A DNA stretch of 64,000 nt, taken from NCBI GenBank assembly GCA_015478725.1, contig JADMIG010000004.1:1-64000 (forward strand), written 5' to 3'. The notes under the pieces are model-generated. The model had not been told where the DNA came from. It searched no databases and was given only the letters and a program-made list of their open reading frames with translations. How positions within the stretch are numbered: position 1 is the first letter of the stretch; each line of letters starts with the position of its first letter. Below are positions 10,204 through 42,338 of this stretch, piece by piece. Source of the DNA: Chloroflexota bacterium. Lineage in GTDB: Bacteria > Chloroflexota > Limnocylindria > Limnocylindrales > CSP1-4. Both the position numbers and the translations under genes were made by a program.

Positions 10204-10371
10204 AGGTGACCCCCAGGCGGGCGCACGTCAATGACTCCCCACACGGCGCTGGCAGATCTGAGCGTGGACCGGGCCGGGCCGACGGGTGGATCCTGCCAGA
10301 TGCCCGGCTGAGGGCCACCTGTCAGCGACGTGCAGACCAACGCCCGCCTGATGGCCATATGCCGGAATCTC
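10204..10371. repeat. Interspersed palindromic repeat locus 1 (three copies)
   Basis: This locus lies in a 308-bp gap that holds no gene. It contains one copy of the window's dispersed repeat in reverse orientation (10204-10230, core CCCAGGCGGGCGCACGTCA) and two in forward orientation (10301-10325, and 10335-10371 with core GCCCGCCTGATGGCCATATG). The last two are head-to-tail, and the middle one is preceded by a reverse-type end (GATCCTGCCAGATG), giving an imperfect palindrome. Confidence 0.65.
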
Positions 10372-10403
10372 GGACGGCGGGCTCGATCCGATGGGCGTCC
10401 TCG

Positions 10404-11918
10404 TCACCCAGACGCCGGCGGTGCGGTGTCGTGGAGGAACGCGAGGGCCAGCGCGCGGTTGAGCTCGGGCCGCGTCCCGTCGTAGCCGAGCGCCCAGATC
10501 CCCACGCCGCGGAGTCCGCTGCGGATGACGAGGTCGCAGCGCGCCCTGAGCGCCTGCGCGTCGTCGAAGTAGACCTGCCGCCAGCTCGTCGCGCAACCGG
10601 ACGTGGTGCACGTCAGGCGACGGTAGGAGAACCAGGCGACCTGCTCGGTCGGGTCGTACCGGCGCCCATAGACCGTGGCGAACGATGCCGCGTCGCTGTA
10701 GAGGACCGGGTTCGACGTCCCGTATCTCGTCCCGCTGCGGTTCGGGGCGCGAACGGCGTTCGTCGTCGTGGACCAGGCCCGACCGAAATACGGGAGGCCG
10801 AGGATGAGTTTGGACGGCGAGACTCGGGCCGTGTACGCCGCGATCGTGTCGGCGAGGGTGTAGCCGGATCCGCCGAGGGGATCGATGGAGCCGGCGATGG
10901 ACGTGCCGGCGGTCCGGTAGTCGTAGCCCATGATGAAGATCGCGTCCGCGCCGCCCCGGGCGGTCGCCGCCTCGACCGGATAGTTGCCGATCCAGCCGGT
11001 CGTATCGAACGTCACCTGGTAGCCGCGGTGGACCCGGTCGAGCTCGGTGCGCATCGCCCGGACGAGCGCCGTGAACTCCCGCGCGCGGCCGGCGGCGAGC
11101 GGCTCGACGTCGAGGTTGATCCCATCGGCACCCCGGGCGCGGACGGCCGCGGCCGCCTGGCGGGCGAGGTTGCGTCGTGCCGAGGCGCTGCCGAGGGTGG
11201 CGCCCTGGAGCGCGGCGCCGGCGGTCGTCCAGCCGAACATGGAGATCGTGAGGACGACGCGCGTGCTGCGCCGATGGGCGGCCGTGATGACGCTCGAGAG
11301 CGCCGAGCTCGTCCAGCCGGCCCAGCCGAGTGCCGTCGAGCCGTCCGGGTTCCGCCTGACGAGGTTCCCGCTGCGGTCCACACCGACGCTGAAGTAGGCG
11401 ATCGTCGAGAGGAGCGAGTAGTCGAGGCGGGTGGTCCGGTCGCCGAGCGTCCAGTAGGGGAGGAAGCCGAAGACCTCGCGGCGCCTCTTCGTCGTGGCAG
11501 CGACGTTCTGGACGGCGACGTTCGGGCCGAGGGCCATGACTCGAGACGCCGCGCCGGCGGCGGGCAGCGCTGTTGGCGCTCCGCCACCCACCGGCCAGTT
11601 GTCGGCGCTGCTCGGGGTGAATCCCACCTCGACCGGGGGCCCGGGCGTGAACCGGATCGGATCGTGGGCGTGGGCTGCGGCCTCCTCGTACTGGATGGAC
11701 GGCTGGATTGCCGGCGGGAGGTCCGGCTGCGTCGCCGGCGAAGCGGCGGTCACGGCCGCCGGGAGGGCCGGCTCGAAGGTGGGGGCGGTCGCGGTCGAGC
11801 CCGGGATGTCGGCCGGCGCGACGATGACGGCGACGGACGTCGCGGTGAGGATCGCGACGAGGATTCCGACGACGGCTCCGAGGACGAGGCGCCCGGCACG
11901 GCGGCCGGGATGCTCCAT
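10404..11918 (-). CDS. GH18 family hydrolase, membrane-anchored (YaaH/chitinase-like)
   Basis: Extracytoplasmic glycoside hydrolase family 18 protein likely to cleave peptidoglycan or another amino-sugar polymer. Residues ~10-35 form a single N-terminal hydrophobic anchor, followed by about 100 residues of Ala/Pro-rich linker. The catalytic barrel starts at FGFLPYWTLGD. The DGxxxDxE signature appears as DGINLDVE with the acid at about residue 272, and YDYRTAG and LPYFGRAW are further family landmarks. The ATG at 11918 is taken, with an in-frame GTG two codons earlier. It lies 25 bp downstream of, and probably in one operon with, a secreted caspase/CHAT-like protein, which points to a joint job at the cell surface. 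Confidence 0.85.
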   Translation of the reverse strand: MEHPGRRAGRLVLGAVVGILVAILTATSVAVIVAPADIPGSTATAPTFEPALPAAVTAASPATQPDLPPAIQPSIQYEEAAAHAHDPIRFTPGPPVEVGFTPSSADNWPVGGGAPTALPAAGAASRVMALGPNVAVQNVAATTKRRREVFGFLPYWTLGDRTTRLDYSLLSTIAYFSVGVDRSGNLVRRNPDGSTALGWAGWTSSALSSVITAAHRRSTRVVLTISMFGWTTAGAALQGATLGSASARRNLARQAAAAVRARGADGINLDVEPLAAGRAREFTALVRAMRTELDRVHRGYQVTFDTTGWIGNYPVEAATARGGADAIFIMGYDYRTAGTSIAGSIDPLGGSGYTLADTIAAYTARVSPSKLILGLPYFGRAWSTTTNAVRAPNRSGTRYGTSNPVLYSDAASFATVYGRRYDPTEQVAWFSYRRLTCTTSGCATSWRQVYFDDAQALRARCDLVIRSGLRGVGIWALGYDGTRPELNRALALAFLHDTAPPASG

Positions 11919-11943
11919 TCGCACCGTAACGATCTGCTGCCGC

Positions 11944-13185
11944 TCAGTGGAGCGGGAGCCGCACCGTCGTCGAGTTCACGTGCCCGCTGCGGTCCCGTCC
12001 GCTCACGATGAGGAACATCGTGCCGGTGTGACCCGCCACGAGGCGGATGGAGGCCCGAAACGTCGTGGCCGAGACCTTCGTCATCGTCACGGCACGGGCG
12101 GCGAGGCGCGGCTGGACGATCGTGAGTCGCGGGTTCGCGCTCAGCGGCCCGGCGCTCGTGGCCGTGACGGTGATGATCTGACCGCGGCCCGGTGTGGTGT
12201 CGGAGACGACGACCTTCGCCCACGGTGACGCGGTGGGCGTCGGCGGCGGCGCGGTGAGCGTCGGCGGGACGGTCGGGGTCGGGGTCGGGGTCGGCATCGG
12301 CGTCGGCGTCGGCGTCGGCGGAACCGTGGGTGCCCCGCCGGCCGGGACGGTCGTCGTGCCGGCGACGACATCCGCCGTGCGGAGCGCGAGATCGGCCACG
12401 ATCGAGCGGTGATACGGCGGCGCGAGAGGACCGTCGGGGTCCATCGCCGCGCTGAAGCCGGGCGATCGGACGGACGGGAAGCTCACGACGTTGCCATGAG
12501 CGGTGGGATCGCTCCGCCAGACCTGGTCGATGGATTGACTGGCCCCGAAGAGCTGGTCCACGTACCAGGCGGCGCCGCCGTAGAGTCCCTCGCCGTAGAC
12601 CTCCGCGATGACCGCACGGGCTCCCGCGCCGATCCAGCCCGCGGCCATGTTGTCCACACGCTGGTGGGCGACGGCGAACGTGGGATCCGGATTCCCGGGC
12701 TCCGAGTTGCCGGCCGAGTAGCAGAGGTGGGCGAGGATAACGATCGCGTTCGGGGCAAGCCTGACGTCGCTCGCGAGGTACGACTCGCCCCAGTACTGGG
12801 TCGTCGTGTCGTCCGTCCCGGCGGTCGGGTTGAGCCCGAGGCCGTCCATGAGGTTCGGCCGGAACGGTGGATACGGGCTCGGCCAGCCCGTTCCGTGGCC
12901 CATGTAGATGACGATCGACGCGCCCTGGAGGGCCGCCTTCGCCGCGGCCCAGGTGGCCGTCGGCGAGTAGACCTTGACGACGTTCGGGGTGTACCTGAGG
13001 GCCTCCGCGGCCGCCGCGTCGGCATCGCTCCGATAGGCGTCCGTCGTCGCGCCCACCGGACCGACGATGATGACGACCTTGGGACCCGTCCCGCTCGTCG
13101 CGGCCGCCGTGGCGACCATCCCGGTCGACGGGAGCGCCCCGACGACGAGACAGGCGAGCACGACCGCGGTGAGAGTGTTCCGCAC
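11944..13185 (-). CDS. Secreted clan CD-like (caspase/CHAT-like) putative cysteine protease
   Basis: Unrecognised secreted protein. The GTG start has GGAGGT six bases before it. Residues 1-30 form a signal peptide. In the next domain a hydrophobic strand ends in GHG (His97) and another, about 58 residues later, ends in ILAHLCYSAGNSE (Cys155). This is the His-Gly / strand-then-Cys layout of clan CD peptidases (caspases, gingipains, CHAT). Residues about 290-330 are a PTPTPT linker encoded by GGCGTC-type hexamer repeats. The last ~90 residues look like a beta-sandwich ending in LPLH. The domain order of peptidase, linker and Ig-like module resembles gingipain-type secreted proteases. Catalysis is inferred from pattern only. 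It is co-transcribed with a GH18 hydrolase. Confidence 0.55.
   Translation of the reverse strand: MRNTLTAVVLACLVVGALPSTGMVATAAATSGTGPKVVIIVGPVGATTDAYRSDADAAAAEALRYTPNVVKVYSPTATWAAAKAALQGASIVIYMGHGTGWPSPYPPFRPNLMDGLGLNPTAGTDDTTTQYWGESYLASDVRLAPNAIVILAHLCYSAGNSEPGNPDPTFAVAHQRVDNMAAGWIGAGARAVIAEVYGEGLYGGAAWYVDQLFGASQSIDQVWRSDPTAHGNVVSFPSVRSPGFSAAMDPDGPLAPPYHRSIVADLALRTADVVAGTTTVPAGGAPTVPPTPTPTPMPTPTPTPTVPPTLTAPPPTPTASPWAKVVVSDTTPGRGQIITVTATSAGPLSANPRLTIVQPRLAARAVTMTKVSATTFRASIRLVAGHTGTMFLIVSGRDRSGHVNSTTVRLPLH
12271..12325. repeat. Hexanucleotide repeat encoding Pro-Thr linker
   Basis: Tandem GGGGTC/GGCGTC hexamers (forward strand) encode the PT-repeat linker of the secreted clan CD-like protein. 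A similar tract at about 5340-5395 encodes the linker of the other secreted protein. Confidence 0.6.
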
Positions 13186-13423
13186 TGGGTGACCTCCGCT
13201 GAACAGGGACGGTGCACGGGCTCCGAGCCCAGCGCACGTCGTTCAGCCTGGCCGACCGGCGGCGCGCCCTCAATCGCGGGATGGTCCGGGTGGCGATGGC
13301 CCCATCGTCGGGCGCGACCGCCGGTGAGTGGCGGAGCGGTGGGCTGTTGTGCGGTCGGGCTGGCGAGGCCGGTGTTCGGTCCGCGTCGCGCTCAGGCGCG
13401 GCCGCTGCCCGGTCGCGTCGCGC

Positions 13424-13978
13424 TCAGGCCCGCAGGCGGTCGACGAGCGTGGCGAGGGTCGGCGTCGTCCGGTCCCGCTCGGAGAGGATCGGCCGACCAT
13501 CCGCGGTCGGCAGCGCCGCCGGCCACGGCACGGCGGCGAGCGGATCGTCCCAGGCGAAGCCGTACTCGTCCGTGCCGTCGTACTCGTTGGTCACGAGGTA
13601 GAGGAGCTCGAGCGGCTCGAGGGCGAGGAACCCGTGACCGACGCCGGCGGGGATGACGACCCAGTCGTCCACGGTGAGCTCGTGGGTCTCGACGATCGGC
13701 GCACCCGCCCCGGCGACGAACGGCCGGACATCGACGAGGGCGACGAACGCCCGACCGGACACGACGACCCAGTAGTCGAGCTGCTGCCGATGGAGATGGA
13801 TCCCGCGGAGGACGCCCGCCGCCGAAGTCGAGAGATTCGCCTGGACGAACGCCGGCGTGCCGTCGAAGGCGCTCGCTCGCCACAGCTCGCGGAAGGCGCC
13901 GCGGCCGTCCTCGTGACGGACGAGGCGCCCCACGCGGACGCCCTGGATGGGCACCTCCTCCGTGCGGTCGCCGCTCAC
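13424..13978 (-). CDS. rfbC: dTDP-4-dehydrorhamnose 3,5-epimerase-like protein
   Basis: Third step of dTDP-L-rhamnose synthesis, a double epimerisation. The cupin core contains NLSTSAAGVLRGIHLHRQQ, the usual active-site strand with the catalytic histidine, then DWVVIPAGVGHGFLALEP, the conserved dimer-face block with the second histidine. The GTG at 13978 overlaps the rfbD stop by four bases (GTGA) and gives 184 residues, the family size. A GTG 24 bases later is also possible. It is last in the rfbABDC operon. Non-epimerising relatives exist, so activity rests on context. Confidence 0.85.
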   Translation of the reverse strand: MSGDRTEEVPIQGVRVGRLVRHEDGRGAFRELWRASAFDGTPAFVQANLSTSAAGVLRGIHLHRQQLDYWVVVSGRAFVALVDVRPFVAGAGAPIVETHELTVDDWVVIPAGVGHGFLALEPLELLYLVTNEYDGTDEYGFAWDDPLAAVPWPAALPTADGRPILSERDRTTPTLATLVDRLRA

Positions 13979-14916
13979 GGGGCGGTGGCCCTCCCGACGC
14001 CGGCCCGCACGAGATCCGCCGCCCGGGCCCGGAGGAGGATCGGGGCGTAGTCGGCCATCGCCTCCTGCCAGGCGCGCAGTGGCTCGCCGGACGGCAGCTC
14101 GGTCGGCTCGAGGACGCCCCAGCGGGGCGGCGTGGAGCCACGTGACCAGGTCGAGCCGGGGACATCCTCGATCTCCACGTCGAGTCCGGCCCGACCGACG
14201 ATCGCCCTCGCCCAGTCGGACCGCCGGGCGGATCCGCCATTCACGATGTGGTGCGTGCCCGCGAACGCGCCGGAGCCGAGCAGCTCGACGATCGCGTCGG
14301 CGAGGTCGACGACATAGGTCGGCGTGCCCCACTCGTCGGCGACGACACGGAGGGGCGCGCCGGCCGCTCGGGCGCGGTCCGCCGCGAGGAGGATCTTCGT
14401 CGGGAAGTCGGGGGCTCCCGGGCCGAAGAGCCAGGCGGTCCGGACGATGGCGAGCTGGCCCGGGTCCGCGCCGGCCCGGAAGGCAGAGCGAGCGGCCTCT
14501 TCGCCCGCGAGCTTGGACGCGCCGTAGGCATTGATCGGACCCGGAGGATCCGCGAGCCCGTAGCCGCGTCCGTCCGTCCGGGCGCCGTCGAAGATCTCGT
14601 TCGTCGAGACGACCACGAGGTCGAGGCCGGCGCCGACACAGGCGTCGGCGAGGACGGCGGTGGCCTGCGCGTTCCGCCGGTCCGCGGTGGCGGGGTCGCG
14701 GGCGCAGCCGTCGACGTCAGTCCAGGCCGCGGCGTGGAGGACGACCTCCGGTCGATCCCGCCCGATCGCGGCCACCGCGGTCTCCGGCTCGTCGAGGTCG
14801 AAGTCGCGACGCGTCCAGCCGATCGGGCCGGCGAGACCGGTGAAGGGCGCGTCGGCGAGGGCGGTCATGAGGGCCCGGCCCAGTCGGCCGCTCGAGCCGG
14901 TGACGGCGATGCGCAC
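13975..14916 (-). CDS. rfbD: dTDP-4-dehydrorhamnose reductase
   Basis: NADPH-dependent reductase forming dTDP-L-rhamnose. The N-terminus reads VRIAVTGSSGRLGRAL (Rossmann glycine motif). Further landmarks are VVLHAAAWTDVD, STNEIFDG, the catalytic YGASK with Tyr and Lys, and VADEWGTPTYVVDLA. The GTG at 14916 lies one base after the rfbB stop. The ORF is open far upstream in this frame, but that part is antisense noise. The 313 residues fit the family. It is coupled to rfbB upstream and rfbC downstream. Confidence 0.92.
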   Translation of the reverse strand: MRIAVTGSSGRLGRALMTALADAPFTGLAGPIGWTRRDFDLDEPETAVAAIGRDRPEVVLHAAAWTDVDGCARDPATADRRNAQATAVLADACVGAGLDLVVVSTNEIFDGARTDGRGYGLADPPGPINAYGASKLAGEEAARSAFRAGADPGQLAIVRTAWLFGPGAPDFPTKILLAADRARAAGAPLRVVADEWGTPTYVVDLADAIVELLGSGAFAGTHHIVNGGSARRSDWARAIVGRAGLDVEIEDVPGSTWSRGSTPPRWGVLEPTELPSGEPLRAWQEAMADYAPILLRARAADLVRAGVGRATAP

Positions 14917-14917
14917 C

Positions 14918-16111
14918 TCAGTCCGTCGCGGGTGGAGCGACGCGCTCGGTCGTCGCGACGTGCTCGTTCGTCGCCTGGCCATGGGCGAGTCGCATCCCGT
15001 ACTGGCGGTCGTAGTAGGCGTCCCAGCCTCCCGAGCGGGCTGCCCGCCACCAGGGCTCGTTCGCCCGGTACCAGTCGACCGTCGTCGCGATCCCATCCTC
15101 GAATGACACCCGATTCCGCCAGCCGAGCGCCTCGAGCCTCGAGCCGTCCATCGCGTAGCGGCGGTCGTGGCCGGGCCGATCCTCGACGGTCCGCACGAGC
15201 GACCACGGCTTGCCGAGCCGGTCGAGCAGCGCCGCCACGACATCGCGGTTCGCCAGCTCGACGGAGCCGGGGATGTTGTACGTCTCCCCGGAGGTGCCGT
15301 GCCGGAGGACGTGCTCGACAGCCCCGGCATGGTCGGAGACGAAGAGCCAGTCGCGACGCTGGAGCCCGTCGCCGTAGAGCGGGAGGGGTTCGTCGTCCAT
15401 AGCGTTCGTGATGAAGAGCGGGATGAGCTTCTCCGGGTGCTGGTACGGACCGTACGTGTTCGAGCCGCGCGTGACGACCGCATCGAGGCCGTGGGTCACG
15501 ACGTAGGACTGGACGAGCAGCTCGCCGGCGGCCTTTGCGGCGCTGTACGGGGAACGTGGCCCGAGTGGGTCTCCCTCCCCCGATCGGCCGGTCGCGACGG
15601 ACCCGTAGACCTCGTCCGTGGACACCTGGAGGAAGCGCGGCGCGGCAGCGCGTTCGCCGATCGCGGCGCGATCGCGCTCGCGGCGGCACGCTTCGAGGAG
15701 CACGTGGACACCGATGACGCCGGTCACGAGGAACGCCTCGGGATCGAGGATCGAGCGGTCGACGTGCGATTCGGCGGCGAAGTTCACCACCGCGTCGGCC
15801 GCGGCGACAAGCGGGCGGACGACCTCCGGGTCGGCGATGTCGCCGTGGACGAACGCGAGTCGCTCGGCCTGCTCGGGATCCGCCGTCGTCGGATCGAGGT
15901 TGCGCTCGCTGCCGGCGTACGTGAGCTTGTCGAGGACGGTGATCCTCGTCCCGTCGTGGCGGGCGAGGATGCCGCGGACGAACGCACTGCCGATGAAGCC
16001 TGCACCGCCGGTCACGAGGAGATGCGACCTCGCCGGGGCACGGTCGGCGGCGGCGGTCCGCGGTCCTGCGGCAGCGGTCGGCGGTCCTCCGGCGGGGAGT
16101 CGACCGGTCAT
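14918..16111 (-). CDS. rfbB: dTDP-glucose 4,6-dehydratase
   Basis: Converts dTDP-glucose to dTDP-4-keto-6-deoxyglucose. An extended SDR with GGAGFIGSAFVRG, NFAAESHVDRSI (a hallmark of the enzyme), the active-site STDEVYGS, and YSAAK. The NTYGPYQHPEKLIPLF and DWLFVSDH blocks are diagnostic for RmlB. The ATG at 16111 overlaps the rfbA stop (ATGA). The first ~28 residues before the Rossmann fold are an Ala/Pro-rich extension, so a later start is possible. Total length is 397 residues, somewhat above the usual 330-360, because of both ends. Confidence 0.93.
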   Translation of the reverse strand: MTGRLPAGGPPTAAAGPRTAAADRAPARSHLLVTGGAGFIGSAFVRGILARHDGTRITVLDKLTYAGSERNLDPTTADPEQAERLAFVHGDIADPEVVRPLVAAADAVVNFAAESHVDRSILDPEAFLVTGVIGVHVLLEACRRERDRAAIGERAAAPRFLQVSTDEVYGSVATGRSGEGDPLGPRSPYSAAKAAGELLVQSYVVTHGLDAVVTRGSNTYGPYQHPEKLIPLFITNAMDDEPLPLYGDGLQRRDWLFVSDHAGAVEHVLRHGTSGETYNIPGSVELANRDVVAALLDRLGKPWSLVRTVEDRPGHDRRYAMDGSRLEALGWRNRVSFEDGIATTVDWYRANEPWWRAARSGGWDAYYDRQYGMRLAHGQATNEHVATTERVAPPATD

Positions 16112-16866: not shown

Positions 16867-16874
16867 CGACGCGC

Positions 16875-16880
16875 AGCGTA
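16875..16880 (-). promoter_or_regulatory. -10-like hexamer, possible leaderless start of rfbA
   Basis: TACGCT in the extended form TGCTACGCT on the minus strand, eight bases before the rfbA ATG. Confidence 0.4.
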
Positions 16881-16936
16881 GCAGGCCGCGGATGACGAGC
16901 GGCCACTCTCCCGGCCCTGGGCCGCAGCGATGCGGC

Positions 16937-17836: not shown

Positions 17837-17859
17837 CGCCGTCGCGCGTGCCCGGGCCG

Positions 17860-18912: not shown

Positions 18913-19003
18913 CGGCGGGTGAGGGTCCTCGTCGGGGTCGCAGGCCGCGGTCGCGGATCCGTCGGCCCACGTCGCCGACGGTGGCCGCCGGCAGGGCCCG
19001 AGC

Positions 19004-19009
19004 AGTATA
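19004..19009 (-). promoter_or_regulatory. -10-like hexamer upstream of mreB
   Basis: TATACT on the minus strand, about 90 bases before the mreB start and next to the 14-bp repeat array. The -35 box is unclear. Confidence 0.35.
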
Positions 19010-19030
19010 CCCGCCGTCGCGCGAGGGTCC

Positions 19031-27502: not shown

Positions 27503-27509
27503 GGCGGAC

Positions 27510-31368: not shown

Positions 31369-31446
31369 CGATCCTGCCAGATGGTCACCAGGCGGGCGCT
31401 CGTCACGCCGATCCCGCCAGGTGGTCTCCACGCGGGCAGATGACAC
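31369..31446. repeat. Interspersed palindromic repeat locus 2 (two reverse copies in tandem)
   Basis: This 389-bp gap between the guaB3-like gene and the Nudix gene holds two head-to-tail copies in reverse orientation, 31369-31407 and 31409-31446. The first matches the consensus closely: GATCCTGCCAGATGGTCACC, then AGGCGGGCGCTCGTCAC. A TAGACT box near 31272 may be the guaB3 promoter. No gene is seen in the gap. Confidence 0.7.
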
Positions 31447-31597
31447 ATAACGGATCCGCGGCGGTCGGCAGCCCACGCTCGATCCGGAACGTTGATCGTC
31501 GTGGGACCTCGCGCGCCCCGGACGAGTGCCTGCCTGGGGGTCGTTTGGCGGAAACGGCGCCCCGGCTCGACGGATTTGCCGGCGGCGCGATCCACCG

Positions 31598-33195: not shown

Positions 33196-33201
33196 GCGGC
33201 G

Positions 33202-34324: not shown

Positions 34325-35181
34325 GAAGAGCTTCCGGCGACCCCGCTCGACACGATCGGGAGCGTCGGCGTCGTCGCCCCGGGCCCCGGCTCGAGCGTCA
34401 GCGCCACCGTCACCCCGGCCGCGCCCGGGCCGGCCCCGGTCAGCGATCCGGTCCCGTCCGGACCCACCGTGAACGATCCGATCGGGGTCGGGGCCGCAGA
34501 GCCCGCGATGACCCAGGCTTCGTAGACGTGGCCGCCGGTCGTCGGGGCGAGGCCGTGCATGACCACGTGCACGGAGCCGTCGGCTGCGATCGCGGCGAGG
34601 CCCGCACGACCGGGATTGTCCCTGCTCGACAGGACGGCGGTGTGACTGCCGGGCGCGGCGGCGGCGGCGAGCACCTGCCCGACGGCCTGCCGATATGCGG
34701 TGGCGCTGTCGAGCTGCGCGCGAAGGGCCACATTCCACGCTCCCAGCGCGACGATCGCGAGCACGGCGGCGATCCCGATCGCCCAGGCGAAGCGCGGTCG
34801 TCCGAGCCCTGCTCGTGCGGGAGCGATGGATGGCGGCGCGCTCCGCCGCTCAGCGAGATCGACCGCGGCAGCCGCCATGGATGACGGCGCGCTCCGCCGC
34901 TCAGCGAGATCGACCGCGGCAGCCGCCATGGATGACGGCGCGCTCCGCCGCTCAGCGAGATCGACCGCGGCAGCCGCCATGATCCGATCGCGGAGCGATG
35001 CGGGGGGCTCCACGAGCTCGATCGGCACATCGAGGGCCGGCACGACCGAGCCGAGCTCGGCGAACTCCTCATGCGCGTGCGGGCAGGTGGCCAGATGGCC
35101 GCGCACCGTCTGCTCCTCGTCTCGCTCGAGGGCGCCGAGCACGTAGGCGGGTGCCAAATCGCGGGCCTCGTCGCACGTCAT
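34321..35181 (-). CDS. Anti-sigma factor of RskA type
   Basis: Membrane anti-sigma factor for the adjacent ECF sigma. The cytosolic anti-sigma domain starts MTCDEARDLAPAYVLGALERDE with HLATCPHAHEEF. A single transmembrane helix (FAWAIGIAAVLAIVALGAW) follows. The RskA C-terminal domain is extracytoplasmic, with VHVVMHGLAPTTGGHVYEAWVIAG and TVALTLEPGPG. Between the anti-sigma domain and the membrane helix a 17-residue segment (MAAAAVDLAERRSAPSS) is repeated three times because of a 51-bp DNA triplication. Its ATG overlaps the sigma stop (ATGA). Confidence 0.92.
   Translation of the reverse strand: MTCDEARDLAPAYVLGALERDEEQTVRGHLATCPHAHEEFAELGSVVPALDVPIELVEPPASLRDRIMAAAAVDLAERRSAPSSMAAAAVDLAERRSAPSSMAAAAVDLAERRSAPPSIAPARAGLGRPRFAWAIGIAAVLAIVALGAWNVALRAQLDSATAYRQAVGQVLAAAAAPGSHTAVLSSRDNPGRAGLAAIAADGSVHVVMHGLAPTTGGHVYEAWVIAGSAAPTPIGSFTVGPDGTGSLTGAGPGAAGVTVALTLEPGPGATTPTLPIVSSGVAGSSS
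34828..34980. repeat. 51-bp tandem repeat, three copies, in the anti-sigma gene
   Basis: Near-perfect units at 34828, 34879 and 34930, each 17 codons. The period is a multiple of three, so the frame is kept, and the juxtamembrane helix of the anti-sigma factor is triplicated. Confidence 0.95.
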
Positions 35182-35792: not shown

Positions 35793-36601
35793 GTGGTGAT
35801 GCGCAGACGGGGCCGCTCCGGTTCACCGGGCTGGCGCTCCCCGTCGGCAGCGGTGCGATCCCGATTCGCGACGGGCTCGGGGTTCGCGGCGAGCTCCTGG
35901 TTCGCGGCGAGCTCCGCGTTCGCGACGGGCTCGGGGGGCCGGGCCTCGATCGCGAGTTCCGGGAGTCGGGCAGCGACCATCGCGAGCACCCTCGCGAACA
36001 CCAGGTCCGCGGATCCGGTCGCGTCGACCACGGCGATGCGACCGGGGTCGGCGGCCGCGATGGCACGGAACCCAGCCCCGACCCGACCATGGAACGCGGC
36101 ATCGTAGGCGGCCTCGAAGCGGGTGATCTCGTCGCCGGCCTTGCGTGCCAGTCCGGCGGACACCGGCAGGTCGAGGAGGATCGTAAGGTCGGGTACAAGC
36201 CCGCCGGTGGCGAACCGTTCGAGCGCACGGAGCTCGTCGAGGGGAAGCCCCGCTCCGTATCCCTGGTAGGCGAGCGTGGAGTCCGCGAACCGGGCACTGA
36301 TCACAAGGTCACCACGGGCGATGGCCGGTCGGACGACTTCGGCAACGAGCTGGGCGCGGGCCGCGTTGAAGAGGAGGGCGTCGGACCGTCCGTCCGATGA
36401 CCGTGATCGTCGGTCGAGGAGGATCTCGCGAATGCGTTCGCCGGTGGTGGTCCCGCCGGGTTCCCGGGTGAGCGTGGCGGCGAAACCCGCCTCGCGGAGT
36501 GTGGCGTGGAGTCGCGCCGCCTGGGTCGTCTTGCCAGATCCGTCGGGTCCCTCGAACGTGATGAAGCGCCCGATCGAGGTCGCTCCACGCCGCATCGTCA
36601 C
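35789..36601 (-). CDS. tmk: Thymidylate kinase
   Basis: Phosphorylates dTMP to dTDP. The P-loop is FEGPDGSGKTTQ, TREPGGT is the diagnostic dTMP-site motif, and STLAYQGYGAGLP is the conserved YQG block. The usual DR[YH] motif reads ARF here, a deviation worth noting. The fold ends near residue 225. Beyond it the tail carries four hexapeptide repeats (PEPVAN/AELAAN type) encoded by an 18-bp minisatellite. The start is GTG at 36601 with TACACT six bases upstream, or ATG two codons later. It leads a coupled tmk-sigma-anti-sigma unit. Confidence 0.9.
   Translation of the reverse strand: MTMRRGATSIGRFITFEGPDGSGKTTQAARLHATLREAGFAATLTREPGGTTTGERIREILLDRRSRSSDGRSDALLFNAARAQLVAEVVRPAIARGDLVISARFADSTLAYQGYGAGLPLDELRALERFATGGLVPDLTILLDLPVSAGLARKAGDEITRFEAAYDAAFHGRVGAGFRAIAAADPGRIAVVDATGSADLVFARVLAMVAARLPELAIEARPPEPVANAELAANQELAANPEPVANRDRTAADGERQPGEPERPRLRITT
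35863..35934. repeat. 18-bp tandem repeat in the tmk 3' end
   Basis: Four units starting at 35863, 35881, 35899 and 35917 (consensus GGTTCGCGGCGAGCTCGG), in frame, encoding a repeated six-residue motif in the C-terminal tail of thymidylate kinase. Confidence 0.85.
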
Positions 36602-36607
36602 AGCCTG

Positions 36608-36613
36608 AGTGTA
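36608..36613 (-). promoter_or_regulatory. -10-like hexamer, possible leaderless start of tmk
   Basis: TACACT on the minus strand, six bases before the GTG start of tmk. Confidence 0.45.
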
Positions 36614-36723
36614 CCCGGCGTCGCGGCCCGCCTTGGCCGAAGCGGCACCAAGCGGCGCCGCATCCTGAGGTTGGCCGCCGGGTTGGTGCGCCGGGTTGGT
36701 GCGCCGGGTTGGTGCGCCGATCC

Positions 36724-36910
36724 CGATCCTGACAATCGACCATCAGGCGGGCGCTCGTCGCGGGTCACTCTGCCAGATGCCCGCGTGGTGGTCCGTTGGC
36801 AGCGACGGAACATGGAACGGTGGGCGACCACGTTCAGGACGGCGGGCCTCACCCGGGTGCGCCTGGGTTCCGGTGACCAATGGCCGCCTGAGGCACATCT
36901 GGCGGGATCG
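36724..36910. repeat. Interspersed palindromic repeat locus 3 (three copies)
   Basis: The 434-bp divergent gap between tmk and tldD holds a reverse copy (36724-36763), a degenerate forward copy (36776-36808) and a good forward copy (36872-36910, ending in GCACATCTGGCGGGATCG). A short direct repeat CGCCGGGTTGGTG (three times, about 36677-36720) precedes them. No gene was found in the gap. Confidence 0.65.
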
Positions 36911-37021
36911 CCGTCCCCGGACCGGACGGGGTGCGGAGCGCCGCCCGCCATCGCCGTCTCCGGACGGGGTGCGGGTCACTGGCCCGTCGACCACAGACCG
37001 CGTCGGAGAGGTCTCCTCTGC

Positions 37022-37027
37022 TACCCT
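37022..37027 (+). promoter_or_regulatory. -10-like hexamer, possible leaderless start of tldD
   Basis: TACCCT in the extended form TGCTACCCT, eight bases before the tldD ATG. Confidence 0.4.
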
Positions 37028-37035
37028 GACCGGCG

Positions 37036-38481
37036 ATGCGCGAGCTCACGGACCGAGCGCTCGACACGGCCGCCCGGCGTGGGGCGACGTACGCCGACGT
37101 ACGCATCGTCCGCCGGCTCGACGAGTCGATCTCGGTGAAGTCCGGTCGACTCGAAGGCGCCTCGTCCGGGGAAAGCGAAGGGTTCGGCGTTCGCGTCCTC
37201 GTCGACGGCGCGTGGGGCTTCGCGGCGTCGCATCGGCTCGAAACACCGGAGATCGACCGGGTCGCGGCAGAGGCGGTCCGCATCGCCCGGGCCTCGGCGA
37301 CCGCCCTTCGCCGGGCCGTCGCCCTCGACGACCGACCAGCGGCCCACGGTACCTACGAGACGCCGGTGGCGGAGGACCCGTTCACCGTCCCGCTCGAGGC
37401 CAAGATCGGCGACCTCCTTGCGGCGGACGCGGCGATGAACCGGGTGAAGGGCCTCGCCTACACGGAGTCCATGTACGCCGCGCAGCGTGAATGGAAGACG
37501 TTCGCCGCTTCGGACGGCAGCTTCACCGAGCAGACGATCACGCACGTGGGATCGGCCGTCGAGGCGAATGCGGTCGACGGAGACGAGCACCAGCGGCGGA
37601 GTTATCCGGACAACGGCGGCGGTTGGCAGGCGGCGGGTTACGAGCACGTCCGCCGGCTCGACCTCCTCGGCAACGCCGAGGCCTATGCGGACGAGGCGGT
37701 CGCACTCCTCTCCGCACCGCAGTGCCCGCCCGGGCGGCGGACGATCGTCCTCGATCCCTCGCAGCTGTACATGCAGATCCATGAGTCGTGCGGCCATCCG
37801 ACCGAGCTCGACCGGGTCTTCGGGACGGAGGCGAGCTACGCAGGGACGAGCTTCCTCACGACGGACAAGCTGGAGTCGGGCTTTCGCTACGGATCCGACC
37901 TCGTCACGATCGTCGCCGACGCAACGGCAGCGGGGGGCATGGGCACGTTCGGCTGGGACGACGAGGGCGTGGCGGCGCAGTCCGTGCCACTCATCCGCGA
38001 AGGGATCCTCGCCGGCTACCTCACGAGCCGCGAGACGGCGCCGCGGATCGGGCGGCGGTCTGGCGGCGCGATGCGGGCGGATGGATGGAACCGCATCCCG
38101 CTCATCCGGATGACGAACATCAACCTCCTGCCGGTCGCGGGGATGAGCCTCGACGACATCGTCGCCGACACGGATGACGGGCTCTACCTCGCCCAGTGCC
38201 GGAGCTGGTCGATCGACGACCGCCGCCTCAACTTCCAGTTCGCCACGGAGGTCGCCTACGAGATCAAGGGCGGCAGGAAGGGCCGGCTCCTCAAGAACCC
38301 GACGTACACCGGCATCACGTACGAGCTGTGGCGATCGTGCGACGCGGTGGGCGACGCGTCGAGCTACCGGATGCTCGGGACGCCCAACTGCGGCAAGGGT
38401 GAGCCGGGCCAGGCCGGCCACATCGGCCACGCGGTCTCCGGCGCCCGCTTCCGCAACGTCCAGGTCGGGGTCCTCGACTGA
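37036..38481 (+). CDS. tldD: TldD metalloprotease subunit
   Basis: Catalytic subunit of the TldD-TldE heterodimeric peptidase that degrades unfolded peptides and, in some bacteria, matures modified peptides. The zinc motif HExxxH is present as HESCGH (residues 249-254). GTFGWDDEGVAAQ, GRRSGGAMRADGWNRIPLIRMTNINL and the C-terminal GTPNCGKGEPGQAGHIGHAVSGARFRNVQVGV match TldD. At 481 residues it has the family length. Its stop shares a base with the tldE ATG, matching an obligate pair. No precursor peptide for a RiPP was recognised nearby. Confidence 0.95.
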   Translation: MRELTDRALDTAARRGATYADVRIVRRLDESISVKSGRLEGASSGESEGFGVRVLVDGAWGFAASHRLETPEIDRVAAEAVRIARASATALRRAVALDDRPAAHGTYETPVAEDPFTVPLEAKIGDLLAADAAMNRVKGLAYTESMYAAQREWKTFAASDGSFTEQTITHVGSAVEANAVDGDEHQRRSYPDNGGGWQAAGYEHVRRLDLLGNAEAYADEAVALLSAPQCPPGRRTIVLDPSQLYMQIHESCGHPTELDRVFGTEASYAGTSFLTTDKLESGFRYGSDLVTIVADATAAGGMGTFGWDDEGVAAQSVPLIREGILAGYLTSRETAPRIGRRSGGAMRADGWNRIPLIRMTNINLLPVAGMSLDDIVADTDDGLYLAQCRSWSIDDRRLNFQFATEVAYEIKGGRKGRLLKNPTYTGITYELWRSCDAVGDASSYRMLGTPNCGKGEPGQAGHIGHAVSGARFRNVQVGVLD

Positions 38482-39836
38482 TGGGCTCGACGCCTCCCGG
38501 GGAGTGGCTCGCCGTCGCCGAACGGGTGGTCGCCCTCGCGATGGCGGCCGGGGCGACGGAGGCGGAGGCGCTCGTGAGCGCGGACGATGCCCAGCTCACC
38601 CGATTCGCCAACAGCGAGATCCACCAGAACGTCGCAGAGACGAGCGTCGGCTGCAACCTCCGATTCGTCGTCGGAAAGCGGATCGGCGTCGCCTCGACCG
38701 GGCGACTCCACGATGACGGTCTGCGTCGCCTCGTCGAACGGGCCGGCGCGATCGCCCGGCACGTCGAGGAGCTCGAGGATTGGGCCGGGCTTCCGGAGCC
38801 GGCCGGACCGATCCTCGACCTTCCGGCGGCCTTCGCCACCGGTACCGCGTCATCCTCGCCGGAGGAACGCGCTGCCGGAGCGCGAGCGGTGATCGCCGCA
38901 GCCGACGCAGCGGGCGTGACCGCCTACGGGTCGTTCGCGACCACCACCGAGCGACTCGCGGTCGCCAACAGCAGGGACGTCCGCGCGGCGGGCGAACGGA
39001 CATGGTCGCAGCTCATCACCGTCTCGATGGGACCGGACGGCGGTACCGGCTACGCGGAGTCGGCCGCGGTGGACGCGACCGCGATCGACGCGGCGGCCCT
39101 CGGCCGGGAGGCGGCCGCGAAGGCGCGAGCGACAGCGGCTGCCCGCCCGATCGAGCCGGGCGACTACCCGGTCGTCCTCGAGGAGTATGCGGTCGTCGAT
39201 CTCCTCGACATGCTCGGCTACCTCGGCTTCAGCGCCCTCGCCGTCCAGGAGGAGCGGTCGTTCGTCGAGATCGGGAAGCGGGTCGGCTCGGACCTCGTCA
39301 CGATCTGGGACGACGGGGCGGACCCGGCAGGCCTGCCGATGGCGTTCGACTACGAGGGTCTCGCGAAGCGAAGGGTCTCGCTCATCGATCATGGCGTATG
39401 CCGCGGCCTGGTCTACGACGCGCAGACCGCGGCGCGGGCGGGAGTCCACTCGACCGGCCACGGCCTGCCGGCCCCGAACCCCTACGGACCGTTCCCCCTC
39501 AACATGCTCATGGCGCCCGGGACGACGCCTCGAGACGAGCTCATCGGCGGCCTGGACCGGGGCCTCCTCGTCACGCGCTTCCACTACACGAACCCCGTCC
39601 ATCCGAAGCTCGCGATCGTCACCGGGATGACCCGCGACGGGACCTTCCTCGTCGAGGGCGGCCGGATCGTCGCTCCCGTCCGCAACCTCCGGTTCACGCA
39701 GAGCTACCTCGAGGCGATCGCCGGCGTCTCGGCCGTCGCGAGCGAGCGGCGGACACTCAAGGGGTTCCTCGGCGGGGTGGTCGTGCCGGCTGTCCGGATC
39801 GACGCGTTCACGTTCACCGGCGCGACCGAGCACTGA
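38481..39836 (+). CDS. pmbA: TldE/PmbA subunit
   Basis: Non-catalytic partner of TldD that shapes the substrate channel. TEAEALVSADDAQLTRFANSEIHQNVAET is the usual N-terminal domain. The central EEYAVVDLLDMLGYLGFSALAVQEERSF and the C-terminal NPVHPKLAIVTGMTRDGTFLVEGG and RNLRFTQSYLEAI blocks are diagnostic. No HExxxH is present, as expected. At 451 residues it is of normal length and is translationally coupled to tldD. A set of GCGCGACCGG repeats lies just after the stop. Confidence 0.94.
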   Translation: MGSTPPGEWLAVAERVVALAMAAGATEAEALVSADDAQLTRFANSEIHQNVAETSVGCNLRFVVGKRIGVASTGRLHDDGLRRLVERAGAIARHVEELEDWAGLPEPAGPILDLPAAFATGTASSSPEERAAGARAVIAAADAAGVTAYGSFATTTERLAVANSRDVRAAGERTWSQLITVSMGPDGGTGYAESAAVDATAIDAAALGREAAAKARATAAARPIEPGDYPVVLEEYAVVDLLDMLGYLGFSALAVQEERSFVEIGKRVGSDLVTIWDDGADPAGLPMAFDYEGLAKRRVSLIDHGVCRGLVYDAQTAARAGVHSTGHGLPAPNPYGPFPLNMLMAPGTTPRDELIGGLDRGLLVTRFHYTNPVHPKLAIVTGMTRDGTFLVEGGRIVAPVRNLRFTQSYLEAIAGVSAVASERRTLKGFLGGVVVPAVRIDAFTFTGATEH

Positions 39837-39850
39837 GGGCGACGGTGCCA

Positions 39851-39899
39851 GCGCGACCGGCGCGAGGACCCGCGCGACCGGCGCGACCGGCGCGAGGAC
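39851..39899. repeat. Short direct repeats after pmbA
   Basis: A 19-bp sequence (GCGCGACCGGCGCGAGGAC) occurs at 39851 and 39881, with an extra half-copy between, giving a 30-bp period. Confidence 0.7.
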
Positions 39900-39912
39900 G
39901 AGGAGGACGCGG

Positions 39913-40356
39913 GTGACGGACCGCGGATCGATCCGGGGGCGCCTCGCGCGTCGATTCGACCCTGCCGAGCTCCGCCAGATCAAGCGTCTCTGGGTACGCC
40001 ACTCGATCGCCGAGGATCGGCGCGACATCGACGGTCTCGTCGCCACGCTCGCCCCGGATTGTGTCTACGAGCTCATCCCGACCGGCCAGCGCTGGGACGG
40101 CCACGACGGTGCCCGGGCGTTCTACTCGGAGCTGTTCGCCGCCTTCCCGGACAACGCCTTCGCCCTGAGCGAGATCGTCGTCGGGCCGCAGGGCGTCTTC
40201 GAGGTCGCGACCCTCACCGCGACGAACCTCGGACCGTGGGCGGGCGTACCGCCGAGCGGCCTGCCGATCCGCATGACCGTCCTCATCCTCTTCCCCTGGG
40301 ATCCCGCCACGGAACGCTTCGGCGGGGAGCGGATCTGGCTCGACCGGGGTCCGTGA
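39913..40356 (+). CDS. SnoaL/NTF2-like protein
   Basis: Cone-shaped alpha+beta barrel of the NTF2 superfamily, 147 residues. LRQIKRLWVRHSIAEDRRDIDGLVATLAPDCVYELIPTG is the typical N-terminal helix plus first strand, and GHDGARAFYSELFAAFPD and the polyketide-cyclase-like RMTVLILFPWDPATERFGGERIWLDRG follow. The GTG start has GGAGG ten bases upstream. Such proteins act as cyclases, isomerases or binding proteins, and the ligand is unknown. It stands alone behind pmbA. Confidence 0.82.
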   Translation: MTDRGSIRGRLARRFDPAELRQIKRLWVRHSIAEDRRDIDGLVATLAPDCVYELIPTGQRWDGHDGARAFYSELFAAFPDNAFALSEIVVGPQGVFEVATLTATNLGPWAGVPPSGLPIRMTVLILFPWDPATERFGGERIWLDRGP

Positions 40357-40438
40357 GGCGCGCATGTCACGGGGTCCGAGCTGGTCGCCGGGCACTTCCT
40401 CCCCAGCCCCAGCTGCGCACCGCCGGCCACCGGATTCC

Positions 40439-40600
40439 CTGTCATATGTTCCTCAGGAGGGCACTCGTCAGGCCGCGCGCACGCCCCGATCGACGGGCCG
40501 TACGGCGGTGACCTGTCCGGTCGTGACAACCGACCCTCAGGCGGTCATCAGACGCTGGCCTGGTGACGAGTGACCGCCTGAGGGTCATCTGGCGGGATCG
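40439..40600. repeat. Interspersed palindromic repeat locus 4 (three copies with perfect inverted repeat)
   Basis: In the 320-bp gap two reverse copies (40439-40472 and 40523-40553) and one forward copy (40562-40600) occur. The last two face each other and create a perfect 16-bp inverted repeat (40532-40547 and 40571-40586, arm GACCCTCAGGCGGTCA) around a 23-nt loop. No gene is seen. Confidence 0.75.
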
Positions 40601-40676
40601 CGGACCCACGAGGACGCGCGCCACGCCGTCCGCCGATCCGACGACGCGTGAGGCGCCGCTCCGCGACCATAGGGGG

Positions 40677-42128
40677 ATGAACGGCGATCGCGCCCCCGAT
40701 GTCGTCGTGGTCGGCTCGGGCCCGAACGGTCTGGCGGCTGCGATCACCCTCGCCCGGGCGGGCCGCTCGGTCGTGGTCTACGAGGCGGCGGCGACGCCCG
40801 GCGGCGGGACGCGCTCGGCGGCGCTCACGCTCCCCGGCTACGTCCACGACGTCTGCTCGGCGATCCACGGGGTGGCCCTCGCGTCGCCGTTCCTCCGGAC
40901 CGTCGACCTCGCCGCCCGCGGCGTCACGTGGATCCAGCCGGATGCGCCCGCCGCGCACCCGTTCGACGACGGCCGGGCGGCGATCCTCGAGCGGGACGTT
41001 CGCGCCACCGCAGACGGGCTCGACGCGCTCGGCGGTTCGGACGGCCGGGCCTGGCGCCGGCTCTTTGAGCCGCTCGTCACCTCGGCTGAGCGACTCCTCC
41101 CCGAGCTCCTCGGACCGGTCCGCCACGCCCCTCGACCGGGCGGCGTGCTGCCACTCCTGCGGTTCGGTCCGCCGGCTCTTCTGCCGGCGCGGCGACTCGC
41201 GGCGACGGCCTTCCGCGGCGATGCCGCGCGCGCCCTCTTCGGAGGATTGGCCGCCCACTCGATGGTCGCCCTTGACCGTGCGGCCACGGCAAGCTTCGGG
41301 CTCGTCCTCGGGACCGTCGCCCACGCCTACGGCTGGCCGATGGCGCGGGGTGGGTCGGGTGCCATCGCCGACGCCCTCGTCGCCGAGCTCCGCTCGCTGG
41401 GCGGAGAGGTCGTCACGGATCGGCGGATCGCCTCACTCGCCGAGCTGCCGCCGGCGCGGGCGATCGTCCTCGACGTCACCCCGCGTCAGGTCGTCGCGAT
41501 CGCCGGCGAGCGGCTGCCGGCCGGCTACCGACGTCGTCTGGAGCGCTTCCGCTACGGCCCCGGGATCTTCAAGCTCGACTGGGCGCTCGAGGGGCCGATC
41601 CCGTGGACGGATCCCGCGGTCTCCCGCGCCGCGACGGTGCACCTCGGCGGACGGCTCGAGGAGATCAGATCGGCCGAGGCTGACGTGGCGGCAGGTCGCC
41701 ATCCGGACCGTCCGTACGTCCTCCTCGTCCAGCACACGCTGTTCGACCCGAGTCGAGCGCCCGCCGGGAAGCACACCGCCTGGGCCTACTGCCACGTACC
41801 GAATGGCTCGACCGTCGACATGACCGACCGGATTGAATCGCAGATCGAGCGCTTCGCGCCCGGATTCCGGGGTCTGGTCCTGGCGCGATCGGCGCGCGAC
41901 AGCCGGACGATGGAGGAGTACGACGAGAACACCGTCGGCGGCGACATCAACGGCGGGCTGCAGGACCTGGGCCAGCTCATCTTCCGGCCGACCCCACGCC
42001 TCGACCCCTACGCGACACCCGTCCGAGGGCTCTATCTCTGCTCGTCGTCGACGCCACCCGGCGGCGGCGTGCACGGGATGTCCGGCTACCACGCCGCGCG
42101 GTCCGTCCTGCGACGGGAGTTTCGGTAG
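40677..42128 (+). CDS. Phytoene-desaturase-like FAD-dependent oxidoreductase (COG1233)
   Basis: Flavoprotein of the CrtI/COG1233 group, 483 residues. The N-terminal dinucleotide-binding motif VVVVGSGPNGLAAAITLARAG with VVYEAAATPGGGTRS binds FAD. The C-terminal FAD block GGDINGGLQDLGQLIFRPTP and LYLCSSSTPPGGGVHGMSGYHAA is complete. Close relatives are annotated as phytoene dehydrogenase-like, but no other carotenoid gene is present here, so the substrate is open. ATG at 40677 is chosen, flush behind AGGGGG. The longer ORF crosses the dispersed repeat and is not credible. Confidence 0.87.
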   Translation: MNGDRAPDVVVVGSGPNGLAAAITLARAGRSVVVYEAAATPGGGTRSAALTLPGYVHDVCSAIHGVALASPFLRTVDLAARGVTWIQPDAPAAHPFDDGRAAILERDVRATADGLDALGGSDGRAWRRLFEPLVTSAERLLPELLGPVRHAPRPGGVLPLLRFGPPALLPARRLAATAFRGDAARALFGGLAAHSMVALDRAATASFGLVLGTVAHAYGWPMARGGSGAIADALVAELRSLGGEVVTDRRIASLAELPPARAIVLDVTPRQVVAIAGERLPAGYRRRLERFRYGPGIFKLDWALEGPIPWTDPAVSRAATVHLGGRLEEIRSAEADVAAGRHPDRPYVLLVQHTLFDPSRAPAGKHTAWAYCHVPNGSTVDMTDRIESQIERFAPGFRGLVLARSARDSRTMEEYDENTVGGDINGGLQDLGQLIFRPTPRLDPYATPVRGLYLCSSSTPPGGGVHGMSGYHAARSVLRREFR

Positions 42129-42175
42129 GGCGGGCGGAGGCGGCGGGACCGCCGAGCGGGACGCGCCCCGTTTGG

Positions 42176-42338
42176 TGTCAACTGCTCCTCAGACGCGCAC
42201 TGGTCCGCGTCCGCGACGATCCAGAGCAGGCTCGCGTGCATGAGACCCGCGTCGAGCAGTGCCATCGGGTCGCCTGGCGCACATCTGGCAGGGACCAGGT
42301 GACGAGTGCCCGTGTCAGGGCCATCTGGCAGGAACCGC
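42176..42338. repeat. Interspersed palindromic repeat locus 5 (three copies)
   Basis: The 291-bp convergent gap contains a weak reverse copy (42176-42207) and two forward copies in tandem (42266-42295 and 42298-42338). The last keeps the full core GACGAGTGCCCGTGTCAGGG followed by CCATCTGGCAGGAACCG. It is followed by CGCGAGCGCCCG-type short repeats to about 42400. No gene is seen. Confidence 0.65.

Follow-up and report, generated by a model that had tools for sequence, protein, structure and literature searches.

Five intergenic gaps of the 64-kb window (the whole stretch of DNA that was analysed) carry short palindromic repeats, and the locus raises the question of what these repeats are and which protein acts on them in trans.

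Repeat units and modules in the window and the genome

A palindromic weight matrix identifies 15 units in the window, confined to exactly the five gaps named in the earlier note; the only other matches (score >8) are two weak ones, with scores of 9 and 10, at 50.3–50.5 kb. The core pattern of that note matches the window seven times with up to three mismatches, versus 0.33 expected. The note had described about 14 copies of a ~38-bp motif, in both orientations and usually paired or in tandem. The recurrent palindromic unit is real and both orientations occur, but the unit is a 41-bp dyad with eight near-invariant bases, the count is 15, and the arrangement is one of five three-unit modules of constant order, P3–spacer–P2–P1, with P2 abutting P1 at a centre-to-centre distance of 40–41 bp (Table 1). 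A scan of the window against Rfam at gathering thresholds gave zero matches. Module 3 lies upstream of a TldD gene, and Module 5 is 85% identical to the module of locus L141. The outer edge of P1 in Module 5 coincides with the start, at 42332, of a 15-bp tandem repeat.

Table 1. Coordinates of the modules and of spacer motif M in the window.
Feature	Position	Strand	Units or sequence	Spacings and remarks
Module 1	10195..10369	+	P3 10195-10235, P2 10289-10329, P1 10329-10369	94 + 40
Motif M, Module 1	10260..10267	+	GAGCGTGG	24 bp from P3, 69 bp ahead of P1
Module 2	31370..31555	-	P1 31370-31410, P2 31410-31450, P3 31515-31555	40 + 105
Motif M, Module 2	31473..31480	-	GAGCGTGG on minus strand	
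Module 3	36725..36909	-	P1 36725-36765, P2 36766-36806, P3 36869-36909	41 + 103
Motif M variant, Module 3	36828..36835	-	GAACGTGG on minus strand	
Module 4	40435..40599	+	P3 40435-40475, P2 40519-40559, P1 40559-40599	84 + 40; clear M absent
Module 5	42171..42335	+	P3 42171-42211, P2 42255-42295, P1 42295-42335	84 + 40; clear M absent

Across the whole draft genome a 25-bp pattern has 32 matches and its reversed control none. A 41-bp model gives 152 genome matches at E≤1, with many dyads matched on both strands. The loci fetched around genome matches contain 53 clusters (modules) with a unit score above 20, of which 52 are distinct because two sit on contigs that share an identical stretch of 5,395 bp. 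The intergenic confinement that the earlier note reported for the window extends to the genome: among the 43 modules that have gene calls on each flank (from a home-made gene caller), none lies inside a gene. Ten modules have no gene call on one side, and one of these, the exception, overlaps the 3′ end of the gene referred to below as gene B.

In genome G004, six of the 14 fetched loci have neighbouring genes in common with a module locus of the present genome (G000), which by a rough estimate is roughly the chance level, and this overlap carries no weight in what follows. Loci L210 and L131 of the two genomes are the same convergent gap, and L214 and L162 are the gene B locus. A role as a polar chromosome signal (KOPS- or ter-like) was rejected, module orientation matching the local GC skew in only 14 of 31 cases.

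Phased dyads and module sub-families

The units were examined for the compensatory changes that hairpins would show. Paired cells across the dyad amount to 54.1%, compared with 55.2% in shuffles, in an alignment of 50 of 51 units drawn from 74 with eight members of a recent sub-family already left out; a 48-unit set agrees. Because partner bases do not covary within the dispersed family, we interpret its units as protein-binding dyads and not as hairpin-type palindromes. A hairpin or RNA element was rejected on these pair counts together with the empty Rfam scan.

The same counts bear on the possibility that these are REP/BIME elements of the RAYT type. The available portions of PMC8266576 and PMC3733652 describe REP/BIMEs as short intergenic palindromic units in opposite-orientation pairs, with many copies per genome, and the RAYT (TnpA-REP) as a resident single-gene enzyme that adjoins copies of its own repeat and co-evolves with it. 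The modules resemble them, as far as those portions go, in that the units are of similar size, lie between genes, oppose one another and have a partner acting in trans (PMC3733652). REPs bear a GTAG or CGTC tag at one end; the listed units contain no GTAG, and by eye the inner edges of P1 and P3 alternate between GGTC and CGTC. However, hairpin covariation is absent, and a search for Y1_Tnp (PF01797; E≤0.001) found no RAYT in the draft genome, the same search being positive in five of 14 control genomes. What survives of the earlier REP/BIME suggestion is an intergenic family in both orientations with signs of mobility, which behaves as REP/BIME elements do when a trans-acting protein serves them; a RAYT and hairpins are not supported, and a RAYT-type origin now seems extremely improbable.

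The spacing of the units is helically quantised. For the P1–P3 span of 43 modules the Rayleigh maximum falls at 10.5 bp, one turn of DNA (R 0.87); the set termed non-family in this test predates the full sub-family definition and keeps some members, and both sets include the duplicate contig. The P3–M and M–P1 distances each shift independently by about 10 bp. One module, at L131, is out of phase with a span of 139.

Among copies of a sub-family, similarity decays close to the module edges. Sequence common to related modules is largely confined to the stretch between the outer edges, which suggests that it is the module itself that moves. At least 14 modules belong to a sub-family whose longer form is bounded by terminal inverted repeats and measures 331 bp in the three copies with both ends matching; Module 1 is a truncated member, its similarity spanning about 10174–10406. 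The terminal-repeat pattern occurs at 45 places in the genome, versus six for a reversed control, with 10 at modules and 35 elsewhere; all four places with one mismatch and six of the eight with at most two mismatches are at modules. Visual inspection of the aligned sub-family copies revealed no consistent target-site duplication.

The modules could accordingly be read as a selfish MITE family moved by a lost or unseen transposase, the DNA-binding protein described below merely binding or silencing them. The terminal repeats of the 331-bp form suit such a history, as do the patchy distribution of modules among relatives and the 80 related TldD loci (1.15 Mb), which contain no module and just two isolated single unit matches (score 18). 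The other aligned sub-families, however, end near the module edges without these terminal repeats, and the site is built into a gene across many genera. We consider this history distinctly unlikely for the family, and the MITE-like character proposed earlier fits the one recent sub-family and not the rest. As in Correia- and MITE-type repeats, the 331-bp form combines terminal inverted repeats with a protein-binding interior; the other sub-families compared differ from such repeats in having no such termini.

A protein family with the dyad in its own gene

Gene B (G000:C24:427-1197), whose 3′ end one module overlaps, encodes an XRE helix-turn-helix (HTH_31, E 3.8e-12) and a PD-(D/E)XK-like C-terminal domain. 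Of 126 matches to the gene family 70 were examined, three of them without an anchor, and 46 of 66 full-length proteins were chosen for alignment; HTH_31 and HTH_3 are each found in 43 of the 46 (E≤0.01). Residues E102, D115, E130 and K132 are invariant in all 46, the last three fitting a D...ExK motif. Matches to members of the Pfam clan are weak (UPF0102, MmcB-like, Hjc and YhcG_C, in one or two of the 46 each, E 0.002–0.004), one PDB restriction enzyme matches at E 0.0032, and AlphaFold gives a poor model (pLDDT 39). The PD-(D/E)XK-like assignment derives from the motif and the weak clan matches and is tentative. Many genomes contain several diverged paralogs; in G026 (77% complete), G057 and G019 unit matches occur without a gene-family homolog at E≤1e-15.

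In 66 genes of the family a dyad lies at one constant position within the 3′ coding end, and an inverted partner in the same helical phase generally follows downstream. The mean unit score by offset peaks at +8 from the codon anchor, a consensus-free palindrome score peaks at that same offset among 780 tried, and GC3 falls there to 0.63, versus 0.83. An inverted downstream copy of the gene's own site (at least 21 of 31 matches) is present in 27 of 64 genes versus 0.5 expected, at distances periodic at 10.5 bp; in a thinned list of 20 spans the phase test gives R 0.87 and p 2e-7. At 18 matches the figure is 48 of 64, against 24 of 64 for a direct-orientation control, whose level is that expected for near-palindromes. 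With at least 20 matches the own site recurs downstream in 38 of 62 genes and upstream in six; the upstream expectation is 1.0, and an upstream module was rejected as a general feature of the gene.

The recognition helix varies together with the dyad. Residue 32 ranks first of 206 columns for base 13, and likewise for base 27, in the 46 aligned proteins: Arg32 goes with G/C in 16 of 22 genes and Gln32 with A/T in 13 of 17, leaving six and four genes, respectively, that break the code. At residue 37, Arg accompanies C/G in 17 of 25 and Leu accompanies A/T in seven of 10, with a rank for base 24 that drops to 13 in the non-redundant control subset of 26 proteins below 50% identity. Bases 14/26 and 15/25 covary too, with no helix residue near the top rank. 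Shared ancestry inflates all p-values of this kind. Because Arg32/Gln32 and Arg37/Leu37 go with the dyad bases, each protein of the family very likely binds the dyad carried in its own gene.

Gene B carries R32 and R37, as predicted from the bases of the dispersed units. The same pair of residues occurs in two of the genome's four aligned paralogs (C16:182 and C3:150174), so the case for gene B as partner rests on its own modules, of which there are two, the upstream one lacking a recognisable P2 or M. The trans partner of the modules is likely to be an XRE/PD-(D/E)XK-like protein.

A second specificity is seen in another genus. In G035 a gene of the Gln32 type is flanked by two directly oriented modules with spans of 156 and 157, and its site recurs at two further loci, one of them a full intergenic module with a span of 157; the site type is absent from a congener. 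Two genera with different specificities thus have a gene with modules on both sides and scattered modules elsewhere.

The usual role of XRE proteins is that of dyad-binding repressors, and helical phasing is typical of repression loops. The modules might then be operators of a global transcription regulator, with gene B autoregulated and the PD-(D/E)XK-like domain serving only in ligand binding or dimerisation. The HTH_31 match and the phasing agree with this, and some modules lie near gene starts, 11 of 43 in divergent gaps. Convergent gaps hold 14 of the 43, however, in most cases the own site occupies the 3′ end and not the promoter, and the nuclease-motif residues are invariant. The neighbours moreover share no common function: no Pfam family occurs in more than two of 92 flanking proteins at E≤1e-5 (92 of 96 listed flanking genes, after dropping one repeat, two genes of the duplicate contig L173 and the large partial gene of L167). 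We regard operators as an unlikely explanation.

A defence or addiction system, in which a nuclease restrained by chromosomal sites is freed on invading DNA, is very unlikely, though compatible with much of the binding-module explanation given below. It would draw on the diverged paralogs and on weak similarity, at the level of the XRE domain, to defence controllers, capH among them; in the member shown this similarity spans the HTH only, and a protein scan of a viral collection found no homolog of the family. Carriage by viruses was rejected on that scan and on a pattern scan that gave two places, judged unrelated by eye.

Proposed dispersal of a binding module from its gene

We consider it probable that a resident XRE plus PD-(D/E)XK-like protein, the product of gene B, binds a DNA module of which the repeats are scattered copies. 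The computational support comprises the module anatomy, the helical quantisation, the module-sized similarity, the fixed site in the gene, the recognition-helix covariation, and the occurrence of gene and solo modules in two genera. A symmetric dimer, or a higher oligomer, of the gene B protein would occupy each 41-bp dyad and, since P3, motif M, P2 and P1 lie in phase along one helix face, the whole module would fold up as a single compact complex. Its home would be the 3′ end of the gene, with P3 within the last codons and P1 at or past the stop, and copies having left the gene would form the solo intergenic modules. The PD-(D/E)XK-like domain may cut DNA at or near modules, repair or recombination may spread them, and units of gene plus module may join at modules, loss between direct copies yielding solo modules.

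A bolder and more tentative proposal is that this constitutes a new mobile-element logic: a resident DNA-binding nuclease with its module in its own 3′ coding end, an Arg–G/Gln–A code, and solo modules seeded by cutting and repair, without a known transposase or recombinase domain.

The spread of modules would work like that of REP–RAYT systems or solo LTRs. Solo LTRs are solo ends of mobile elements, many of which stand alone elsewhere in the genome; here too a gene lies between terminal module copies (direct in G035) and many solo modules are found elsewhere, although the module is about 165–200 bp and no retroelement genes were seen beside it. The res site of resolvases has three phased sub-sites and shares with the module the layout of one separate and two adjacent dyads and spacing that changes by whole helical turns; the 41-bp dyads and the XRE protein set the module apart. 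With REP/BIME–RAYT systems, to the extent that the portions cited above describe them, the modules have in common many short intergenic palindromic units tied to a resident single-gene protein. REPs, however, are single-strand hairpins recognised by an HUH enzyme, whereas the modules are dyads without intra-family covariation, up to three per module and helically phased, with an XRE/PD-(D/E)XK-like protein whose own gene carries the site within the 3′ coding end.

If this explanation is true, intragenomic sequence populations of the REP–RAYT style arose a second time from unrelated parts, with double-strand dyads replacing the hairpins and an XRE/PD-(D/E)XK-like protein replacing the HUH enzyme. 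With dozens of natural protein–site pairs in which amino acids correspond to bases by a code, the family lends itself to the study of how a binder and its site evolve where the site lies within the binder's own coding sequence. It also offers a testable reason for the many unannotated XRE-nuclease-like paralogs of the class, and for the repeats at which its genome assemblies apparently break.

Repeat units and module architecture

A palindromic weight matrix recovers 15 units in the five gaps of the window in which the earlier note had counted ~14 repeats, and the rest of the window has only two weak matches scoring above 8. Each unit is a dyad of 41 bp centred on A or T; eight positions (numbered from 0) are 95–98% constant in the scan: G6, C8, G13, C16 and the partners G24, C27, G32 and C34. 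The core first noticed by eye has 7 matches in the window (0.33 expected by chance), and a 25-bp pattern has 32 matches genome-wide and 0 in the reversed control. Using the sequence model R1 of the dispersed dyad together with the palindromic matrix, 53 clusters were identified in the 3.45-Mb draft genome (G000), of which 52 are distinct; two lie on contigs C50 and C52 (loci L172 and L173), which are identical along 5,395 bp of the sequence compared and are probably an assembly duplicate. Several contig ends (C2, C10, C23, C24, C26, C38 and C45) carry modules at or near them, so assembly was probably interrupted by the repeats, which may be more numerous than counted here.

The units form modules in which unit P3 is separated by a spacer from abutting units P2 and P1 (40 or 41 bp). 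This triple is present in 31 three-unit clusters, and in L139 with one extra weak unit; other clusters have P3 and P1 without recognisable P2, or are single, or are truncated by contig ends. P1–P3 spans in 43 modules are 124–125, 133–136, 144–147 or 155 bp, with one exception (139), and their Rayleigh statistic peaks at 10.5 bp (R 0.87). The spacer motif M, GAGCGTGG, lies 24–25 or 33–35 bp from P3 and 59–61 or 69–71 bp from P1—the two distances shift independently, each by about one turn—and is missing or indistinct in a good number of modules, including the fourth and fifth of the window. Locus L131 has an insertion of 5 bp. Module spacings recur in other genera (G004, G006 and G021), and G057, of another family, has a P2–P1-like pair at 40 bp. 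Pairing between arms is no commoner than in shuffled arms (48 and 50 units), which argues against a hairpin with the arms as strands of its stem; the best reading of the arms is as a pair of protein half-sites.

The 43 modules with both neighbours lie in 18 tandem, 14 convergent and 11 divergent gaps, versus 44, 9 and 26 of 79 comparison gaps of at least 100 bp. Among the 92 flanking proteins scanned, any one Pfam family is present in two at most.

Coordinates of modules, gene B and other features
Feature	Location	Remarks
Gene B	G000:C24:427-1197	convergent with dnaK; 256 residues
Gene B upstream module	G000:C24:129-304	
Gene B 3'-end module	G000:C24:1071-1244	overlaps the gene's 3' end
Sixth module on the window's contig	G000:C4:64072-64237	72 bp past the window's right end; P1–P3 span 125, no recognisable P2
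Short tandem repeats at module edges (examples)	window 42332-42397; L143 2862-2973; L168 169-229	
Intergenic tandem array	window 50471-50776	34-bp units, seven 102-nt copies in register; flanked by a + gene ending at 50256 and a gene starting near 50853; two weak unit-like matches (50342, 50477) at or before its start
51-bp unit, three copies	window 34823-34981	head-to-tail, 96% alike
Open frame	window 42420-45851, minus strand	Spore_III_AA-like ATPase, PTPase-like and R3H domains
XRE/PD-(D/E)XK-like genes directly upstream of TldD in two relatives	L079 8948-9706; L091 6955-7740	in G000 this place is occupied by module 3 and lacks such a gene

Module edges and distribution

Related modules resemble one another from the outer edge of P3 to that of P1, with dissimilar flanks. 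The closest pairs, L170/L171 (93%), W42, the fifth window module, with L141 (85%) and L133/L143 (77%), lose their similarity within ~15 bp of the edges, and three G004 modules (77%), L142/L166 (76%) and L150/L168 (69%) within ~40 bp; in L139/L165 similarity runs ~70 bp past one edge. This loss of similarity at or near module edges supports the mobility proposed earlier. The likeness to REP/BIME-type or MITE-like elements holds in part: terminal inverted repeats bound a longer form in only one of the G000 sub-families compared (at least 14 modules, the window copy at 10.2 kb being a truncated member; 331 bp in the three copies matching the pattern at both ends), and the RAYT (Y1_Tnp) partner was not found in the G000 draft. 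Short tandem repeats abut modules at 25 of 88 flanks and are present in 35 of 542 intergenic tiles (odds ratio 5.7, p 2e-8), an excess that would be compatible with DNA being broken and repaired at module edges.

R1-type sites (E≤0.01) are present in 11 of 61 genomes including G000, and most relatives lack them. Only G000 (115) and G004 (27) have many, and none is found in G001 or G030, congeners of G000/G004 whose genomes are both 71% complete.

Gene B and the dyad at its 3' end

The protein of gene B combines an XRE helix-turn-helix with a C-terminal region that contains the motif GSIDVLSFD...LLVVEVKS. Homologs are present in 33 of the 61 genomes including G000 (1–9 matches each) and in 8 of 151 genomes of a phylum-wide sample (E≤1e-20), all of the same class. 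Q21, G41, H81, W97, E102, G112, D115, E130, K132, R150 and P207 are invariant in 46 aligned proteins, which we take to be a PD-(D/E)XK nuclease signature; in domain libraries the helix-turn-helix alone is firm, and PD-(D/E)XK families match weakly in 1–2 of the 46. Among the 70 loci examined, six more have a dnaK neighbour, including one in G059, which belongs to another family of the class; this marks the gene at the dnaK locus as a long-term resident.

A set of 66 genes, excluding gene B, was aligned on the Gly codon of the conserved GILFV near the 3' end. Mean unit score is maximal at offset +8 (−15.5, with 15 of 66 genes above 0), the other offsets of the 801 averaging −48.1 (sd 5.8) and the runner-up, −61, reaching −25.9; this second peak (genes L256–L325) lies within the coding region, with 6 of 66 above 0 and the best, L297, at 18. 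A consensus-free palindrome score also peaks at +8 among 780 offsets (8.05; elsewhere mean 5.75, sd 0.64, next best 7.53). Third-position GC is 0.63 in codons 3–16 from the anchor versus 0.83 in the remainder of the gene, a dip to which weaker protein constraint could add.

At 18 or more of 31 matches, 48 of 64 genes have an inverted partner of their own P3 downstream, with 6.3 expected when the sites of other genes are used; at 21 or more the count is 27 of 64, with 0.5 expected. Distances to the partner show a 10.5-bp periodicity (R 0.51, p 3e-6), nearly in phase with the dispersed modules. Downstream matches average 6.33 with a gene's own key bases versus 5.82 (sd 0.08) when swapped, with 0 of 200 swaps reaching 6.33, and at least 20 matches are found downstream in 38 of 62 genes, upstream in 6 and in an inside-gene control in 1.

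Covariation of dyad and recognition helix

The dyad covaries across paralogs, with complementary bases at positions 13/27 in 67% of genes (34% expected), at 16/24 in 58% (34%), at 14/26 in 55% (33%) and at 15/25 in 54% (32%). Among 206 columns of the 46 proteins, residue 32, predicted to be the first of the recognition helix, ranks first for bases 13 and 27; an alternative ranking places it second for base 13, behind a residue whose codon contains that base. Arg at 32 accompanies G/C in 16 of 22 and Gln A/T in 13 of 17. Arg–G and Gln–A are classical contacts for such helices. Residue 37 ranks first for base 24 and second for base 16, behind the codon encoding that base, with Arg accompanying C/G in 17 of 25 and Leu A/T in 7 of 10. 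Restricting the set to 26 proteins that share less than 50% identity puts residue 32 second (base 13) and first (base 27), and residue 37 second (base 16) and thirteenth (base 24). No helix residue is prominent for bases 14/26 and 15/25. Gene B has R32 and R37, matching the prediction from the bases of the dispersed units, as do two of the four that were aligned among five other G000 paralogs.

Dispersed modules are predicted for other specificities and were found in the one case tried. The G035 gene, whose residue 32 is Gln as judged by eye and whose dyad has A at position 13, is flanked by two direct-orientation modules (spans 156 and 157). Two further loci carry its site, as a complete intergenic module (span 157) in one and at a contig end in the other; the site is absent from the congener G015 and from G000, and no match arises with the reversed control.

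No description of this system came up in searches of literature that lies mostly outside subscription journals and includes no preprints. The co-variation gives good support for binding of the dyad by the gene-family proteins; DNA cleavage, the way in which copies arise and any host benefit we infer. Solo modules would be ends of a gene-plus-module unit that have dispersed, following a logic like that of solo LTRs and that of REP–RAYT (PMC3733652, PMC8266576).
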